Part shown: one piece after another, positions 2,982-43,184 of the stretch
Layout: each line of letters starts with the position of its first letter
How positions within the stretch are numbered: the stretch's first letter is position 1
NCBI RefSeq assembly: GCF_026419855.1
Contig: NZ_JAOAKP010000009.1
Location: forward strand, 1-43,921
Reading direction: 5' to 3'
DNA: 43,921 nt
Source of the DNA: Methanothrix sp.
GTDB taxonomy: Archaea; Halobacteriota; Methanosarcinia; Methanotrichales; Methanotrichaceae
Notes under the pieces: model-generated
Told to the model about the DNA's origin: nothing
Databases searched by the model: none
The model's input: the letters and a program-made list of their open reading frames with translations, nothing else
Program-made: the position numbers and the translations under genes

Positions 2982-3040
2982 TCTCGCTCTTATCCATATG
3001 ATAACTTGCCCACCGATACATTGGTTCCAATATGCACTCA
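2982..3040 (-). repeat. Dispersed ~55-bp repeat, copy A
   Basis: Read on the minus strand, it runs from AGTGCATA through CAAGTTATCATATGGATAAG to GAGCGAGATTATAAG. The core word GGATAAGAGCG is shared with copies near 3.1, 43.1 and (with one change) 39.4 and 5.3 kb. A TATA-like ATTATAAG follows at once. TTATC and GATAA can pair across ATATG. The function is unknown. Confidence 0.7.
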
Positions 3041-3100
3041 TGGCGAATAAATGAGGGCTTTTTGTAGCCAGCATGCTTTGCACGCAAGTTGTCAACCACA

Positions 3101-3156
3101 TAAATGCATAGCAGGACCAGTGCATCTTCTGTGGGTCATCGTATGGATAAGAGCGC
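3101..3156 (+). repeat. Dispersed ~55-bp repeat, copy B
   Basis: The copy contains ATGCATAGCAGGACCAGTGC, a short TC-rich spacer, and then CATCGTATGGATAAGAGCG. The match to copy E near the right end of the window covers both the GCATAGCAG-ACCA half and the GGATAAGAGCG half. A TATA-like ATTTATAG lies about 20 bases further on. No gene follows directly. Confidence 0.75.
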
Positions 3157-4719: not shown

Positions 4720-5316
4720 AACATCGACTCCATATTCGAATTTGTATTACCAGACGTCACAGGGATCTTTAAAGAACCAGATCTCCAAAGCGGATTTACT
4801 GCAGGCGTGCCGACGCAGGCGAAATCCTTGAAGTTCTCGCTCAGAAAGAAGGCTCCAGAGAGGCAGGAATCTGCATCATTCTCTACTTTAATGAATGATC
4901 CAGTAGAGTTCCCGGACAGCCCGGCTTATAGAGTGAGTCTGGCTGTCTAGTTCATGGCCACGGCATCTCAATCCGCATGCATATACCCAGCGCTATGTAG
5001 CGCCCGCACCGATTCTGGATGATCTGAGCTTGAGACTGTTCCGTCCTGAGATCCTGTAAAAGCAGCCCTAAATAAATAGTTACGCATTCGAATACTTAAG
5101 CAGATTATAGAAGATTCCTATTAAACTCCTCTTCAACAATCTGCACATCTCGCTGCCTGCTTCTATTAAAGTAGTTTTATAGTATTCCGTATAAGTTTAT
5201 ATAATATTGCATATTACATAAAATCATGTATAAAGTGGGACATATCATGCAGATTTTAAATTGATTTATATGAAGCGACGCAAAGAGCTATAATTTATGG
5301 GGAGCTTAAGCTCCAA

Positions 5317-5372
5317 GAACGCATAACAGAACCGGTGCTTCTTCTGGCAGGTCGTCATATGGATATGAGCGA
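5317..5372 (+). repeat. Dispersed ~55-bp repeat, copy C
   Basis: The copy has CGCATAACAGAACCGGTGCT, then TTCTTCTGGCAGGTCGTCAT and ATGGATATGAGCGA. It differs from the consensus GGATAAGAGCG by one base (GGATATGAGCG) but keeps the whole upstream half. AT-rich sequence (CAATATCATAATG) follows. Confidence 0.7.
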
Positions 5373-5412
5373 TTCAATATCATAATGTATCTACGCTGTA
5401 GAATATAATATC

Positions 5413-5606
5413 ACTAATTTCAGAATTGGGCACTAATTTTAAAAACAATAATAGTAAGCCCGAAATTAGTAAATTAATAAAATTAGTTCGTTTGAATGCT
5501 CTTCATAGAGGTGTGCGTGCGTGTCCGCATGGAGACCTGCCATGACGCACAGAATCACCTCCTGCAGGCCTCTGCACTGCTACTAATTTTACAAATTTAC
5601 TAATTT
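5413..5606. repeat. Iteron-like ACTAATTT octamers
   Basis: Exact copies of ACTAATTT lie at 5413, 5432, 5582 and 5599, and of its complement AAATTAGT at 5463 and 5480. They fall into three pairs with start-to-start spacings of 19, 17 and 17 bases. The middle pair is inverted relative to the other two. Near-matches (GAATTAGC) continue into 5630-5665. This arrangement resembles initiator or regulator binding sites. Confidence 0.6.
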
Positions 5607-5661
5607 AGTGCCTTTAGATATCGATTTTCGAATTAGCTATTGTTATATAAAATTGGTTGAA

Positions 5662-7986: not shown

Positions 7987-8184
7987 CTACCAGTCGAGAA
8001 CCCTCAGTTCCTGGACACAGGCTGATATTCCGCTTCTGTATCGGGAAGTAGTGTTTTTCCTGTCCCTCCTCCTCAAGTCGGCATCTTCTGTAGCGTCCGC
8101 TGTGATCTGACCGGCAATATCTCTATCCGAATGTTCATCCTCAGGGCGCTCAGCATATCGATCCCCCCTCAGACTTTGCTGCAT
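7987..8184 (-). CDS. Small charged protein of unknown function
   Basis: The 65-codon frame starts at ATG 8184 inside the 3' end of the preceding gene (35-base overlap) and ends 140 bases before the ATPase. Composition is strongly charged (many Arg, Asp, Glu), with no signal peptide or membrane span and a single Cys. No family is recognised. The position between two same-strand genes supports it as part of the operon, but length and overlap leave real doubt. Confidence 0.4.
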   Translation of the reverse strand: MQQSLRGDRYAERPEDEHSDRDIAGQITADATEDADLRRRDRKNTTSRYRSGISACVQELRVLDW

Positions 8185-8554
8185 GCGGTATTACAATCGT
8201 GGTGCAGCACATCCCTCTGGAATCATCAACCCGTTCATCCCTCCCGGTAAGCACTCTGATCATGTACTCTTTGCCCGGGATATCGGTTCGGAGTATCGCG
8301 ATCCTGCTCCCCACATTAGGGGCCAGCTTATCCTTAAGCCCGATTGGCAAGACAACAACATGTCCTGCGATCTCTGCCAGCAGCATACCATCTTCCTCCA
8401 CAAGCTCTGCGAAGGTACCGACTACCTCCATGTACGGAGAGAGCACGGTCATCTTCCGGCTGTCCGTTACCATTCCTCCGCTGGACTGGAGCACGGGATT
8501 CCAGAGCAGTTCCACTCTTCCACCCATACCAGACCTCACATCAACGCTCATCAT
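8150..8554 (-). CDS. Small hypothetical protein, first gene of the ATPase operon
   Basis: This protein of about 134 residues is rich in alternating hydrophobic strands (EVVGTFAELVEEDG, LLAEIAGHVVVLPIG, SRIAILRTD), compatible with a small beta-barrel such as an OB-like fold. That is an impression only. The frame can open at GTG 8560, but ATG 8554 has GGAAG at a usable distance and is preferred. A minus-strand TATA-like TTAATATAAG lies at about 8623-8632. The gene faces the winged-helix regulator across a 200-base region full of operator palindromes, so it is probably controlled by that regulator. Confidence 0.65.
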   Translation of the reverse strand: MMSVDVRSGMGGRVELLWNPVLQSSGGMVTDSRKMTVLSPYMEVVGTFAELVEEDGMLLAEIAGHVVVLPIGLKDKLAPNVGSRIAILRTDIPGKEYMIRVLTGRDERVDDSRGMCCTTIVIPHAAKSEGGSIC

Positions 8555-8606
8555 CCACACACTTCCTGTGGCGTTTCACTGCCACAGCACACTGTTGCAC
8601 CCCGGC

Positions 8607-8635
8607 ACTATTTATTATTTTTCTTATATTAATTG
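8607..8635 (-). promoter_or_regulatory. TATA-like promoter for the minus-strand operon
   Basis: Read on the minus strand, TTAATATAAG followed by an A/T-rich run lies about 70 bases before the ATG at 8554. The spacing suits an archaeal TATA box with a leader of about 40-50 bases. Confidence 0.45.
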
Positions 8636-8644
8636 ATGTGCATT

Positions 8645-8717
8645 ATAACCGATTATATCCTGAAATGGGCTCCAAATAACCGGTTATATGCGGGCTTTGT
8701 GCTGTATAACCGGATCC
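8645..8717. promoter_or_regulatory. Three phased operator palindromes
   Basis: Three related 12-bp sites occur: ATAACCGATTAT (8645-8656), the perfect palindrome ATAACCGGTTAT (8676-8687) and the half-conserved ATAACCGGATCC (8706-8717). Start-to-start distances are 31 and 30 bp, close to three helical turns, so dimers could bind on one face. They lie between the divergent regulator and the small-protein/ATPase operon, directly upstream of the regulator's TATA-like CGATAAATATC (about 8721-8731). Confidence 0.75.
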
Positions 8718-8758
8718 CGATATCGATAAATATCTGCAAGGTTTTTGAAGGTGACATC

Positions 8759-9535
8759 ATGTCCGGAGCTGGAGTTAACAGGCACAGGGAAAAGGAGGAC
8801 AAGAAGATCAGCATCCTGCTGCTTCTGGCAGACGAAAAGGGCCACCCACAACGTGAAATCTCAAAGCACATTGAAACAGCCTTCAGTAATACTAACAGTA
8901 TTATAAGAGAGCTGATGGAGGATCATCTGATTTACGAAGGTGCGCCTCGAAGAACCACAAACCCGATGTCAAAGCGGCCGAGGGCAAAAGAGATTCCCTT
9001 GTATATAATCAGAGATCTGAAAGTGTACCGAACGATTTTAATGAATATCAATGATGAAATAGAGGAGAATATATTAAATATCCACATGGCATCAAGAAAC
9101 AGGGAGCTGGCACGTCAGCACATCATACTGGAGAGGAACGGGCTGCGTTTGAAAAAGGGTTCGATAACACAGGAAGATTATGAAAACCTGTATAAAAAAT
9201 TTGACGAGATGGCGAAGTACAGAGGGCATGAGGAGTCGTTTTATGAGAAAAAGCGTGATAAATACATGGCTTACCTTGAAAAGTTTTTATTATCAAAATA
9301 TACTGAAGAAGTCATCAGAGAATTCGGGCTCGATGCCGTACTGAGGATCGGCCTTACCGGAACGCTGGACATCTGGTATATGGAGAAAATTATTCAAATA
9401 GCATTGAATAAAAAGCTGGCGGATGAACTGCGAATCAAAGAGATTCTCGATGCCATGCAGGAGAACGGCCATTACGAGCTCCCATGCATCTTCAGCAGGA
9501 GAATCCCATCCAGGTTCGAGAACGGCACGATCTGA
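8759..9535 (+). CDS. Winged-helix transcriptional regulator of the element
   Basis: This 258-residue protein starts at ATG 8759, with GGTGA a few bases upstream (AAGGTGACATCATG). The frame continues upstream to 8633, but that part covers the operators and is not protein-like. Residues about 10-65 form a winged-helix DNA-binding domain (KISILLLLADEKGHPQREIS, then SNTNSIIRELMEDHLIYEG). The remainder is helical and charged, compatible with a dimerisation or coiled-coil region. The gene is more AT-rich than the core genes. It is divergent from the ATPase operon and preceded by three phased palindromes, so autoregulation and control of the operon are likely. It may act as the element's repressor or copy-number regulator; that role is inferred. 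Confidence 0.75.
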   Translation: MSGAGVNRHREKEDKKISILLLLADEKGHPQREISKHIETAFSNTNSIIRELMEDHLIYEGAPRRTTNPMSKRPRAKEIPLYIIRDLKVYRTILMNINDEIEENILNIHMASRNRELARQHIILERNGLRLKKGSITQEDYENLYKKFDEMAKYRGHEESFYEKKRDKYMAYLEKFLLSKYTEEVIREFGLDAVLRIGLTGTLDIWYMEKIIQIALNKKLADELRIKEILDAMQENGHYELPCIFSRRIPSRFENGTI

Positions 9536-9601: not shown

Positions 9602-10543
9602 CTATATCCCGAGCTGAGGTATGTGCGCGAGGTAGCTCTCCCTGAGCTCCTCTCTGTCTATGTGGTCGTAGATGTCTATGGCGCTCCTCCTCACGTCTCC
9701 CCTGAGCTCCTGGATGAACTCGCGCGGCATGCCAGCCCTCCTGAGATGCGTCGTGAACCAGTGGCGGCAGCAGTGGGGTGTGAAGTGGTCCTCTGGGCGA
9801 TCTGAGCCGGGGTCGTGCAGGCCGACGCGTTCCGCAGCTTTCGTCACCACCATGTAAACCCCGTTCCGATCCAGCCTCTCCCCCATGCTGTTGATGAAAA
9901 GAGCCCTGATGTTCCTGCTGTTCCTCGACTCTCTGGCCCTGAGCCACCTGTGAAGTATGAACGCGGTCTCCTCATCGAAGAACACGGTCCTGTTCGTCCT
10001 CTTCGCGGTCGGCTTGAGCCTTATGCTCTGATCCACCATGTCGACGTCGTCCACATCCAGGCTTATGAGCTCGTTCCGGCGTATGCCGGTCTTCGCCAGC
10101 AGTGTGATTATGGCCTTGTCTCTTATGTCCACGACCGAGTTTATGAGCCGGGCCATCTCCTCCACGGATATGAGCTTTCTCGAACCCCCATCGTCGTTGT
10201 CCTTGTACCTCCGCAGGTACCTCTTCCTCACAGAATGTATCGGGTTTCTGGGGATGTACTCCTCGTACTCCAGAAACTCGTAGAATGCCGAGAGCGCGGA
10301 AAAGTAGTTCTCAACAGTCTTATGGCTCACACCCCTCTCCTGCCTGAGGTACTCCAGAAAGCTCCTCAGAACGTTCTTGTCAACACCGAGCAGGTCGATA
10401 CCCCTGCTCGCGAGGAACTGGGTGTAAATCCTGAGCGACGATATGTATCGTCGTGTGGACTCTCCAGACATCCCACGGATCTCGCAGTCATGCTCGAACT
10501 GGCGTATGAGGTCTGAGGCGAGATCGTTCTTTTTTACATCCAT
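9602..10543 (-). CDS. Tyrosine recombinase/integrase (XerA-like)
   Basis: This 313-residue site-specific recombinase has an N-terminal SAM-like core-binding domain (about residues 8-95) and a catalytic domain (about 115-310). Visible catalytic residues are Arg in TGIRRNELISL, the HxxR box in HCCRHWF and the nucleophile Tyr in AIDIYDHID. The LLAKTG block before the first Arg is typical. The frame opens at 10555, but the ATG at 10543 forms TGATG with the stop of the preceding RHH gene, which points to translational coupling. The pair lies next to tRNA-Leu, a common attachment target. I found no second copy of the tRNA 3' end, so an active integrase versus a resident chromosomal recombinase remains open. 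Confidence 0.9.
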   Translation of the reverse strand: MDVKKNDLASDLIRQFEHDCEIRGMSGESTRRYISSLRIYTQFLASRGIDLLGVDKNVLRSFLEYLRQERGVSHKTVENYFSALSAFYEFLEYEEYIPRNPIHSVRKRYLRRYKDNDDGGSRKLISVEEMARLINSVVDIRDKAIITLLAKTGIRRNELISLDVDDVDMVDQSIRLKPTAKRTNRTVFFDEETAFILHRWLRARESRNSRNIRALFINSMGERLDRNGVYMVVTKAAERVGLHDPGSDRPEDHFTPHCCRHWFTTHLRRAGMPREFIQELRGDVRRSAIDIYDHIDREELRESYLAHIPQLGI

Positions 10544-11052
10544 CACCCAATCCACCTCCAGCCGTGGGCCGTTCTCGCCACAAGACCGTACGCCTCAAGA
10601 TCCTCCAGCTGGCTCGATACCGCCTTAACAAGATCAGAATCGCCCGGGTCTATGTTCAGCTCCTCAAGAAGCCTGTAGCTCTCCACAGTGCCACCACGCC
10701 TCAGTATCCGTATGATCTCCCTGTTGTATCTCCTGACACCCTCAAAACCTGTATCGAGAAACGCCTCGCTCCTGTAACGTCTGAGCTCCTTCTCGTACCT
10801 CTCTATGACTATCTTCTTCTGCCTGAGGTCGTCCCTCAGCTCCCTGTTCTCAGCGCGCAACCTGCCGAGCTCCAGCATCAGCTCCTTACGCGGCTTGTAT
10901 TCCGATCCCTCGGCGATCGCACTCTCAAACACCTCTATCACAAACCTGGACAGCGGCACTCCTGCCTTCCTGGCAAGACTCTCCCACCGGGCTTTGTCCT
11001 CTGAGGAAGGAAGATAGAGGTAAACATATCTGGACCTGTCAGGCTTGACCAT
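10543..11052 (-). CDS. Ribbon-helix-helix/coiled-coil DNA-binding protein
   Basis: This 169-residue protein has an RHH-like N-terminus (RYVYLYLPSSEDKARWESLA, then GVPLSRFVIEVFESAI). It continues with a long charged coiled coil (about residues 55-95, ELGRLRAENRELRDDLRQKK). The C-terminal part resembles a winged helix (NREIIRILRRGGTVESYRLL, ending with GLVARTAHGWRWIG). It overlaps the recombinase start by one base, so the two are made together. A partner or accessory role for the recombinase, or autoregulation, is likely. A 10-bp inverted repeat immediately upstream would suit RHH binding. I know of no characterised homologue. Confidence 0.8.
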   Translation of the reverse strand: MVKPDRSRYVYLYLPSSEDKARWESLARKAGVPLSRFVIEVFESAIAEGSEYKPRKELMLELGRLRAENRELRDDLRQKKIVIERYEKELRRYRSEAFLDTGFEGVRRYNREIIRILRRGGTVESYRLLEELNIDPGDSDLVKAVSSQLEDLEAYGLVARTAHGWRWIG

Positions 11053-11097: not shown

Positions 11098-11110
11098 ACC
11101 AGTAAAAGAG

Positions 11111-11195
11111 TGCGGGGGAAGGGATTTGAACCCTTGAACTCCTGCGAGAATAGATCTTGAGTCTATCACCGTTGGCCTGGCTTGGTTACCCCCGC
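11111..11195 (-). tRNA. tRNA-Leu(CAA)
   Basis: The minus strand folds as an 85-nt class II tRNA. The acceptor is GCGGGGG/CCCCCGC with A as discriminator, and the anticodon stem is ATAGA/TCTAT around CTCAAGA, giving anticodon CAA (Leu UUG). The variable arm is long, and the T-arm is GGG-TTCAAAT-CCC. No intron and no encoded CCA. A TATA-like CCTTATATCG lies upstream at about 11226-11236. It sits next to the recombinase operon, with its 3' end toward it, the usual orientation of a tRNA attachment site. Confidence 0.95.
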
Positions 11196-11493: not shown

Positions 11494-11661
11494 GCTCTTA
11501 TGGTTGGCGGGCTCTATCCATGGAACCAAGTGGCTGAAAATAACAATACACTGCGTTTACAGACATCCTGAAATCGTGAGGCGCATCAGCCGAAAATTAT
11601 TTGCAGAAACGCATGGAGAGATGTGCATGGAATTCCATCATACAGGGAATGGGAGTGCAGC

Positions 11662-13428
11662 ATGGGCGAGATGAAAACCTGCTTTAAGAGGGTCGACTAC
11701 GACCTCAGCGGTCTTTTACACTATATTGACATAGGCGATATCGGGCTGCCAGACATTCAGCGTCCGTTCGTGTGGTCTAATACCAAGGTGCGTGACCTGT
11801 TTGATTCCATGTATCGAGGCTTCCCAGTGGGTTATCTTCTGTTTTGGGAGAACATCACGGCAAATGGCAGCAGGCAGATCGGAGTAGATGATAAGCAGCA
11901 TCCAGTCCCCTCACGCCTGATAGTGGACGGACAGCAGCGTCTCACGTCGCTTTATGCTGTCTTCCGTGGAAAGAAAGTTCTGGATAAAGAGTACCACGAG
12001 CGGAAGATCGAAATAGCCTTTCGCCCACGTGATGGCAAGTTCGAGGTTGCGGATGCTGCCATACGCCGCGATCCTGAGTGGATCGCGGACATATCCGAGC
12101 TCTGGGCCTCCGGTAAGTCGAGCTATCAGCTGGTTAAGGAATTTCTCGAACGCCTTAAGACCAAATGCACACTTCGGCCTGATGAGGAGGAACGTATCGC
12201 TCACAACCTCGATCGTCTCTTCGACCTTCAGAAGTACCCATTCACAGCCCTAGAAATTGCACCCACAGTGGACGAGGAAGAGGTGGCGGACATCTTTGTG
12301 CGCATAAACAGCGAAGGAGTCCGATTGAACCAGGCGGATTTCATTCTGACCCTCATGTCAGTTTTCTGGGACGATGGGCGCAAGGCTCTAGAGGCGTTTT
12401 GCGATCAATCACGCCGCGTGCCAGATCACTCCTCTTCGCCATCGCCTTTTAACTACTTCATCCAGCCCGACCCGGCTCATCTGCTCAGGGTTGCTGTTGC
12501 ATTTGGGTTCTGGCGTGGCCGATTGAAAAGTGTTTATCAGATCCTACGTGGGAAGGACCTTGAGACTGGAGAGTTCTCAGCTGAGGCGCGTGAGAAACAG
12601 TTTGAAAAATTAAAGATGTCACAGGCTGAGGTTCTGAACCTCACTAACTGGCATCAGTTCTTTTCATGCATCATCGGTGCTGGTTTTCGCAGTGGGAATA
12701 TGGTCACGTCGCAGAATACACTTCTTTATTCATATGCGTTTTACCTTATCGGTCGTAAGCATTTTGGTATTCCTGAACACAAGCTTCAGAAGCTAATAGG
12801 CAGGTGGTTCTTCGCCTCAAGCCTAACCGGACGGTATACCAGCTCACCTGAAAGTGTTATGGATAGCGATCTTAATCGTCTCAAGGCTGCCAGAGACGGG
12901 GAGTCCTTCGAGGCAATACTCGAGCAGATGATGGCAAACGAGCTGACCAATGACTTCTGGACGATTACGTTACCTGCGAACATGGATAGCTCATCTGCAT
13001 CGAGCCCCGAGCTCTTTGCCTACATAGCGGCGCAGAACCGGCTTGGGGCACCTGTTCTGTTCTCCCACAAGAAGATCCATGACCTGCTAGATCCTACCAT
13101 CAAAACTACAAAGAAAGCCCTTGAGCGACACCATCTATTTCCACGTGCGTGGCTGGAGAAGCATGGTGTAAAGGATCTGAAGAAGATCAACCAGATCGCG
13201 AACTTCGCCCTGCTGGAGTGGCCTGAAAATCTGACCATCAGCGACGAACCGCCATCCAGTTATGTGCCAAAGCTCAGAGAACGTTTCACCAACGACGAAT
13301 GGCAGATAATGCATGAGCTTCACGCTCTGCCAGAAGACTGGCATGAGATGCAGTACGAGGATTTTCTCCAGAAGCGCCGTGAGCTCATGGCAGCGATCAT
13401 CCGCCGTGGGTTCGAGACGCTGAGGTGA
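11662..13428 (+). CDS. GmrSD/BrxU-like type IV restriction enzyme (DUF262-DUF1524)
   Basis: This 588-residue single-chain protein has the domains of the GmrS and GmrD subunits. The N-terminal DUF262 domain shows IQRPFVW, the FPVGYLLFWE block, the DGQQRLTSLY nucleotide-binding signature and FVRINSEGVRLNQADF. The C-terminal DUF1524 region has the HNH-like RHHLFPRAWLEKHG followed by INQIANFALLEW and the conserved Asn of PENL. Family members use a nucleotide to drive cutting of modified phage DNA. The start is set at ATG 11662, with GGGAGTG upstream; an in-frame ATG at 11623 adds 13 unlikely residues. It lies in the accessory part with hsdR, as in a defence island. All key motifs are present, so it is probably intact. 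The substrate modification cannot be read from sequence. Confidence 0.9.
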   Translation: MGEMKTCFKRVDYDLSGLLHYIDIGDIGLPDIQRPFVWSNTKVRDLFDSMYRGFPVGYLLFWENITANGSRQIGVDDKQHPVPSRLIVDGQQRLTSLYAVFRGKKVLDKEYHERKIEIAFRPRDGKFEVADAAIRRDPEWIADISELWASGKSSYQLVKEFLERLKTKCTLRPDEEERIAHNLDRLFDLQKYPFTALEIAPTVDEEEVADIFVRINSEGVRLNQADFILTLMSVFWDDGRKALEAFCDQSRRVPDHSSSPSPFNYFIQPDPAHLLRVAVAFGFWRGRLKSVYQILRGKDLETGEFSAEAREKQFEKLKMSQAEVLNLTNWHQFFSCIIGAGFRSGNMVTSQNTLLYSYAFYLIGRKHFGIPEHKLQKLIGRWFFASSLTGRYTSSPESVMDSDLNRLKAARDGESFEAILEQMMANELTNDFWTITLPANMDSSSASSPELFAYIAAQNRLGAPVLFSHKKIHDLLDPTIKTTKKALERHHLFPRAWLEKHGVKDLKKINQIANFALLEWPENLTISDEPPSSYVPKLRERFTNDEWQIMHELHALPEDWHEMQYEDFLQKRRELMAAIIRRGFETLR

Positions 13429-15242: not shown

Positions 15243-15296
15243 ATCCGCTCTTCTTGCTTGGAGAGGCACTGTTTCCGCTATTGTGCTCCTGATGAA

Positions 15297-15357
15297 TGAA
15301 TGCGTGCCTCCAGCAACCGTTACGCTTGCTCTCTAAGTTGCTGAACAAACAAGAGCG
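15297..15357 (+). repeat. Possible degenerate copy of the dispersed repeat
   Basis: The segment has CCAGCAACCGTT, then CTAAGTTGCTG and ACAAGAGCG, followed by TATATT. The order of sub-words (AGCA-ACC, AAGTT, AAGAGCG, TATA) matches copy E, but the core GGATAAGAGCG is not intact. It is listed as a weak candidate only. Confidence 0.3.
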
Positions 15358-15426
15358 TTTGTATATTCATTCACTGTGCAGCTACGCCAGCTTTTCTGAA
15401 GGCCGTGGCTGCCGTTCTTCTCTCCC

Positions 15427-39426: not shown

Positions 39427-39482
39427 ATACAAGTACACGACCGGGGCCTCTGCGGACAGGTTATCAGATCGATAAGAGCGAC
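39427..39482 (+). repeat. Dispersed ~55-bp repeat, copy D
   Basis: The copy has ACACGACCGGGGCCTCTGCG, then GACAGGTTATCAGATCGATA and AGAGCGACATG. TTATC and GATAA can pair around AGATC. It lies about 70 bases upstream of the many-PAS kinase, with a TATA-like GTATATATTTTG (about 39518-39530) between the repeat and the gene. Confidence 0.7.
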
Positions 39483-43010: not shown

Positions 43011-43125
43011 CGTCCTTCTCACTGTTAAAGTTCGTAAGGACTCAGGATAAGAATCGCTCTTACGTGTTTCACAGCTTGGAGATCAGATCATGCGATATAT
43101 TTGCTTGAAGTGCTGTTCGTCTTGG

Positions 43126-43184
43126 CATAAGTGCATAGCAGCACCATTGCCTCTACCTGCAAGTTAGCAGGCGGATAAGAGCGA
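43126..43184 (+). repeat. Dispersed ~55-bp repeat, copy E
   Basis: This is the best reference copy: AAGTGCATAGCAGCACCATT, then GCCTCTACCTGCAAGTTAGC and AGGCGGATAAGAGCGACA. It is followed directly by TTTATATAAG. It shares the GCATAGCAG and GGATAAGAGCG halves with copy B and the CAAGTTA word with copy A. Confidence 0.75.

Follow-up and report, generated by a model that had tools for sequence, protein, structure and literature searches.

What reads three evenly spaced palindromes that lie between a regulator gene and a leftward operon in Methanothrix sp., and what would be the consequence for the two promoters on either side? The DNA analysed is a stretch of 43,921 nucleotides (the window, below), one entire contig of this archaeal genome. 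The original prediction, made from its sequence alone, described the palindromes as operators phased at 30-31 bp, close to three helical turns, that form a cooperative switch of an integrated element with graded site strength. The three sites are real and are not due to chance, and a control protein encoded by the element itself very probably docks on them. The gene layout bears out the divergent promoter, with a winged-helix regulator on one side and an operon of a small gene and an ATPase (DUF927) gene on the other, and the integrated element is likewise borne out, by a junction with tRNA-Leu, an integrase and empty sites in congeners. The features are collected in Table 1.

Table 1. Features of the control region and the element in the window. 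L026 is the corresponding locus in genome G043, another species of the genus.
Feature	Position	Strand	Remarks
DUF927 ATPase/helicase-like protein, 743 aa	5662-7893	-	profile match
Divergent small protein, predicted beta-beta-beta-alpha-beta-beta, OB-like	8150-8473	-	ORF start possible up to 8560; 107-136 aa
TATA-like TTAATATAA, leftward operon	8624-8632	-	12 bp from site 1; kept in L026 as TTAAATATAA; sequence only
Operator site 1, ATAACCGATTAT	8645-8656	.	toward leftward promoter; predicted operator, read from sequence
Operator site 2, perfect palindrome ATAACCGGTTAT	8676-8687	.	identical at L026 11665; predicted operator
36-bp block, 100% identical in window and L026	8676-8711	.	spans site 2, the spacer after it and one half of site 3
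Operator site 3, ATAACCGGATCC	8706-8717	.	adjoins the regulator's BRE/TATA; predicted operator
BRE-like CGATA (8724-8728) overlapping TATA-like ATAAATAT (8726-8733), regulator promoter	8724-8733	+	6 bp after site 3
Winged-helix regulator, 258 aa, MarR-like N-terminal domain and long helical C-terminal part	8759-9535	+	profile match, structure model
Tyrosine recombinase (integrase), 317 aa	9602-10555	-	profile match
Conserved protein overlapping integrase start	10543-11052	-	occurs with the integrase in many related loci
tRNA-Leu(CAA), integration target	11110-11195	-	chromosome runs on to the right

The sites and the genes around them

All three palindromes of the original prediction are present at 8645-8717, the middle one perfect, with start-to-start steps of 31 and then 30 bp. 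The window holds 16 sites with at most three mismatches, compared with 7.2 +/- 2.4 in shuffled sequences, and none of 100 shuffles reaches 16. If 16 matches are placed at random, three fall within 62 bp with P = 0.004, a value that ignores match quality. The perfect palindrome is present once in the 1.9-Mb host genome by genome-wide count; among five congeners, G043 and G045 have one copy each, the former at the corresponding promoter and the latter in an unrelated ORF. The G045 copy was dismissed as apparently a chance occurrence, given its place within a long ORF. Site 3 offers a single good half-site, ATAACC, and its right half is degenerate in both the window and L026.

The regulator scores 21.1 bits against the Pfam profile HTH_24 and 17.4 bits against MarR (PF01047, cut-off 24.6 bits), both under the curated cut-offs. 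In its structure model (mean pLDDT 79), the N-terminal winged helix is confidently predicted, and two long helices come after it. Foldseek returns weak matches to the winged-helix domain only (best E 0.003), and the MarR members among the top matches have E of 0.0045 or weaker and a TM-score to the query of at most about 0.26; the long helical C-terminal part is not well matched by any solved structure. Dimeric binding to palindromes is the habit of MarR proteins, and the MarR-like domain in the model leads one to expect the same of the regulator.

The small protein encoded on the opposite strand has weak matches to Stn1-Ten1, RuvA, CST and Teb1, and in a search of 238 genomes of the class, members of its family turned up in no genome outside the taxonomic family of the window. 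The small OB-like family is expanded there (loci L076-L122, with matches in 21 genomes), and in numerous cases an integrase of the same type is close by. This suggests a large family of integrative elements that apparently has no name yet. The leader of the small gene contains an inverted repeat, CTGTGGC...GCCACAG (window 8566-8587), which L026 keeps as TGTGGC...GCCACA; it is possibly an mRNA hairpin or a second operator. Beyond the operon, adjoining the DUF927 gene, an A+T-rich stretch at 5411-5640 carries 55-nt inverted repeats and repeated CTAATTT. This stretch is the left limit of homology with L026 and a candidate replication origin.

The promoter motifs, assigned by resemblance, keep their distance from the array. 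A BRE-like motif (CGAAA, CGATA or CGCAA) begins 6 bp past site 3 in 10 of 11 loci and 5 bp past it in the remaining one (L068), and an A+T-rich, TATA-like stretch comes after it. These distances are in-register readings from the sequence; the first match found automatically was another reading, at 0 bp in the window, L026 and L073 and at 7 bp in L071.

An element in tRNA-Leu genes and its relatives

The element integrates in tRNA-Leu genes. In the window, the tyrosine integrase adjoins the tRNA gene, as in other tRNA-integrating elements, and the element starts at the 3' end of tRNA-Leu. All five congeners carry tRNA-Leu(CAA) with its right-hand neighbour gene, and homology stops at or near the tRNA 3' end, so their sites are empty. 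The copy of the element in G043 sits instead at tRNA-Leu(GAG), with the tRNA-Leu(CAA) site of that genome empty, and homology between the window and G043 ends at the tRNA. It is this combination, of empty sites in congeners and a different isoacceptor in G043, that identifies the element as one that integrates in tRNA-Leu genes. For the left attachment site, no second copy of the tRNA 3' end was found left of 11110 in the window, nor in L026; both contigs may end inside the element.

The surroundings show further variation. A GmrSD-type restriction-like gene (window 11623-13428), flanked by the neighbour of tRNA-Leu on one side and a nucleoside phosphorylase gene on the other, is absent at the corresponding place in congeners L039, L041 and L042 and is a separate insertion. 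A dispersed repeat family (window 2984-3155, 5313-5372, 15253-15358, 39436-39481 and 43116-43184) is common to other genomes of the genus (L039, L041 and partly L042). At the left contig end lies an HsdR-type restriction subunit (93-2627) whose profile match begins at position 77-80, and its N-terminus looks incomplete.

Comparison with L026 sets the 36-bp block and the BRE/TATA region apart from the rest of the element. Protein identity between the two copies is 86% for DUF927, 87-88% for the integrase and about 60% for the regulator. At the DNA level, the BRE/TATA region is 96% identical, the regulator gene 68%, the leader 53% and spacer 1 32%; the invariant 36-bp block stands in surroundings (DNA and genes) that are mostly 60-74% identical. 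In L026, the sites lie at 11635 (ATAATTGGTTGT, the counterpart of site 1), 11665 and 11695 in the same divergent promoter, with steps of 30 and 30 bp.

More distant regulators (about 25% identical, in other genera) are found only within the same taxonomic family, bar two marginal matches. A gene of the small-protein family lies beside the regulator on the opposite strand in all 11 loci with a clear regulator relative (window included), and integrase sequence is present on the contigs of most of these loci. The original prediction had proposed, as one refutation, that the palindromes be absent where both flanking genes are conserved; the closest relative has them, and so do the majority of distant loci with a related regulator. 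We find two features expected of an autoregulatory operator array: repeated palindromes between divergent promoters next to the gene of a DNA-binding protein, and conservation of the sites together with the regulator and the divergent gene.

For the spacing, a matrix trained only on the window and L026 was applied to eight held-out promoters. The best partner of a site lies at exactly 30 or 60 bp in L066, L068, L069 and L073. None of 3000 dinucleotide shuffles reaches the period-30 triple score in L066, L068 or L069, and P is 0.0003 in L073 and 0.0027 in L071. Summed over the eight loci, period 30 scores 60.8 and the next best of the periods from 14 to 60 scores -2.7. L070, L074 and L075 yield one site only in the matrix scan, or two spaced by 24 bp in the case of L070. 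Because L066, L069, L071 and L073 all come from one genome (G005), and L071 and L073 are paralogues, there are fewer independent lineages than loci. A motif-free period test gives 30 as the best period in L026, L066, L068, L069, L073 and L109 and 31 in the window; after allowing for all periods, it is significant only in the window, L066, L069 and L109, and in L026 its optimum differed from the operator triple.

These comparisons refine the original prediction. The 30-31 bp steps stand for the window, but relatives keep exactly 30 bp and 31 is seen only once. A step near 30 bp is right, whereas three helical turns would be 31.5 bp; the conserved 30 bp amounts to 2.86 turns at 10.5 bp per turn. 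Graded strength holds within the window, where the matrix (trained on these sites) ranks site 2 over 1 over 3, but the order differs between loci: the top-scoring site is the middle one in the window, L026, L068 and L069 and the promoter-proximal one in L071 and L073, with sites about equal in L066.

The array goes with a particular type of regulator. Loci that bear it have recognition helices reading SNTN, SNIN, SNLN, SNLS or GNLK, that is, (S/G)N-L/T/I, and it is absent with related regulators reading GYVS (L067) or NNLL (L070, L074 and L075). The array is mostly missing where the small gene occurs without this regulator type, which rules it out as a trait shared by all promoters of the small-protein family. 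The exception is L109 and L110, nearly identical small-gene copies in G005 with ACAATTAGTTGT, ACAACTTATTGT and ACAACTGGTGGT at steps of 30 and 30 bp. Their sites follow ACAA-N4-TTGT rather than ATAA-N4-TTAT, both arms having changed to match, except that the third ends in TGGT. A dimer whose recognition had altered would be expected to leave such a paired change; the contigs end at the promoter, so the partner regulator would lie beyond the sequence.

Spacing alone is not diagnostic, since a genome-wide scan for ATAA-N4-TTAT-N18-ATAA-N4-TTAT with at most two mismatches is at noise level in most genomes (about equal to a reversed-pattern control). In G005, four of the five matches with at most one mismatch fall in these modules. 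In viral contigs, the regulator and the DUF927 protein had no relatives, and the promoter block was not found. In another genus (g8), an array of ATAA-N4-TTAT-type sites with several 30-bp steps lies at L130 around 1471-1600 (G009:C19:59824-59935), upstream of a probable membrane transporter gene as read in that locus. Similar arrays are found in L129, L131, L132, L134 and L136, and no regulator or small protein of the families described here was found in the g8 loci.

How the array may act

We consider it probable that the regulator binds the array as dimers and represses both its own promoter and the leftward one. One winged-helix dimer would occupy each palindrome at the fixed 30-bp step, and a filled array would span about 70 bp between the two divergent promoters. 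With site 3 standing 6 bp from the regulator's BRE/TATA and site 1 standing 12 bp from the leftward TATA-like box, such an array would block TFB/TBP at both. The regulator would limit its own synthesis in this way, and the putative replication operon (OB-protein/DUF927) would be kept off while the element is integrated in tRNA-Leu. Binding by this particular protein, its dimeric form, cooperativity, repression and the role of the leftward operon are all inferred. Several points count against the scheme: an array just upstream of the BRE could serve activation, only one half of site 3 is good in the window and in L026, site strengths follow no conserved order, a left attachment site was sought and not found, the Foldseek match is weak and confined to the winged-helix domain, and several held-out loci share one genome (G005).

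The same regulator and operators could indeed work mainly in activation, with a dimer at site 3 recruiting TFB/TBP to the BRE/TATA and site 1 activating the leftward promoter. The array lies upstream of the BRE-like motif and not over it, at the constant 6 bp expected for a contact with TFB, and AvtR, a regulator from an archaeal virus, uses its arrayed sites for activation as well as repression (PMC5569661). Still, with 6 bp from the edge of the 12-bp core to the BRE-like motif, a dimer next to TFB would be cramped, and the archaeal element regulators that the review describes as having sites at the promoters of their own genes are mostly repressors (PMC5569661); activation as the main role seems to us unlikely. 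Regularly spaced repeats that adjoin a replication-type operon in a mobile element might also be origin iterons bound by a replication protein (e.g. with DUF927), their promoter position being secondary. We find this highly improbable: DUF927 is near only a few of the inspectable distant modules (many are on short contigs), the regulator and small gene occur together in all loci with a visible array (the L109 and L110 contigs stop at the promoter), the sites keep a fixed register with the regulator's BRE-like motif and the A+T-rich stretch at 5411-5640 is a better origin candidate. A reading by a host regulator rather than the element's protein deserves hardly any credence, even though host winged-helix proteins can bind such A+T-rich palindromes and a chromosomal array lies upstream of the transporter in g8, as the perfect site is nowhere else in the host genome, variation in the sites follows the element's regulator and, in L109/L110, the paired change is found in a genome that also has ATAA-type copies.

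Returning to repression by the element's own regulator, a step of 30 bp would turn each site by about 50 degrees relative to its neighbour if the DNA is not overtwisted; being 2.86 turns, it argues for protein contacts or packing over exact helical phasing. An archaeal histone dimer wraps a length of DNA that matches the 30-bp step (PMC10516927), and the host genome encodes a histone. Since the step is 30 bp and not the 31.5 bp of three turns, regulator dimers might conceivably take the places of histone dimers one by one, or alternate with them, the switch then being a competition with chromatin at the divergent promoter, a reading that we rate as a long shot.

Comparison with known systems

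A device of this general kind is known. In phage lambda, three palindromic operators (OR1-OR3) lie between divergent promoters of an integrating element, as do the three palindromes here, but the protein fold is another, the spacing is closer and the promoters are bacterial. The likeness does not extend to a lambda-type bistable switch, as the score order varies by locus and there is one DNA-binding candidate at the promoter, with no Cro-like second protein evident. The predicted winged-helix domain weakly resembles those of ZitR and MepR, and palindromic sites, a divergent promoter and an adjacent gene are likewise as in MarR-family regulators; the regulator here differs in scoring under the Pfam MarR and HTH_24 cut-offs and in its unmatched long helical C-terminal part.

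The position of the tyrosine integrase next to the target tRNA gene is shared with tRNA-integrating archaeal elements (PMC8371274, PMC4158269), the first of these papers making no mention of Methanothrix or Methanosaeta. A search of open-licence papers found no description of an element family with this OB protein, regulator and integrase, and the integrative-element family in this family of methanogens is apparently undescribed. Its control region has been defined from sequence alone, and in some copies the recognition sequence is altered on both arms while the strict 30-bp architecture is kept. This makes a compact system in which to study archaeal element regulators against TFB/TBP, and perhaps against histones.

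In working principle, the closest analogues of the array are archaeal: C68, AvtR, SvtR and F55. C68, a winged-helix protein of the Sulfolobus plasmid-virus pSSVx, is likewise element-encoded and binds in the region separating its promoter from a divergent one: one site is at the C68 BRE, and the other lies halfway between the two promoters (PMC5569661). It has two sites with the motif TATG(C/GG)TTTTC, whereas the element here has three palindromes at a constant 30-bp step, and the likeness described here is one of working principle. AvtR and SvtR of archaeal viruses and F55 of SSV1 have several sites of differing match that reach, or are thought to reach, into the BRE/TATA, and F55 keeps SSV1 in the carrier state; these are ribbon-helix-helix proteins with other motifs, whereas the regulator here is of the winged-helix type (PMC5569661).
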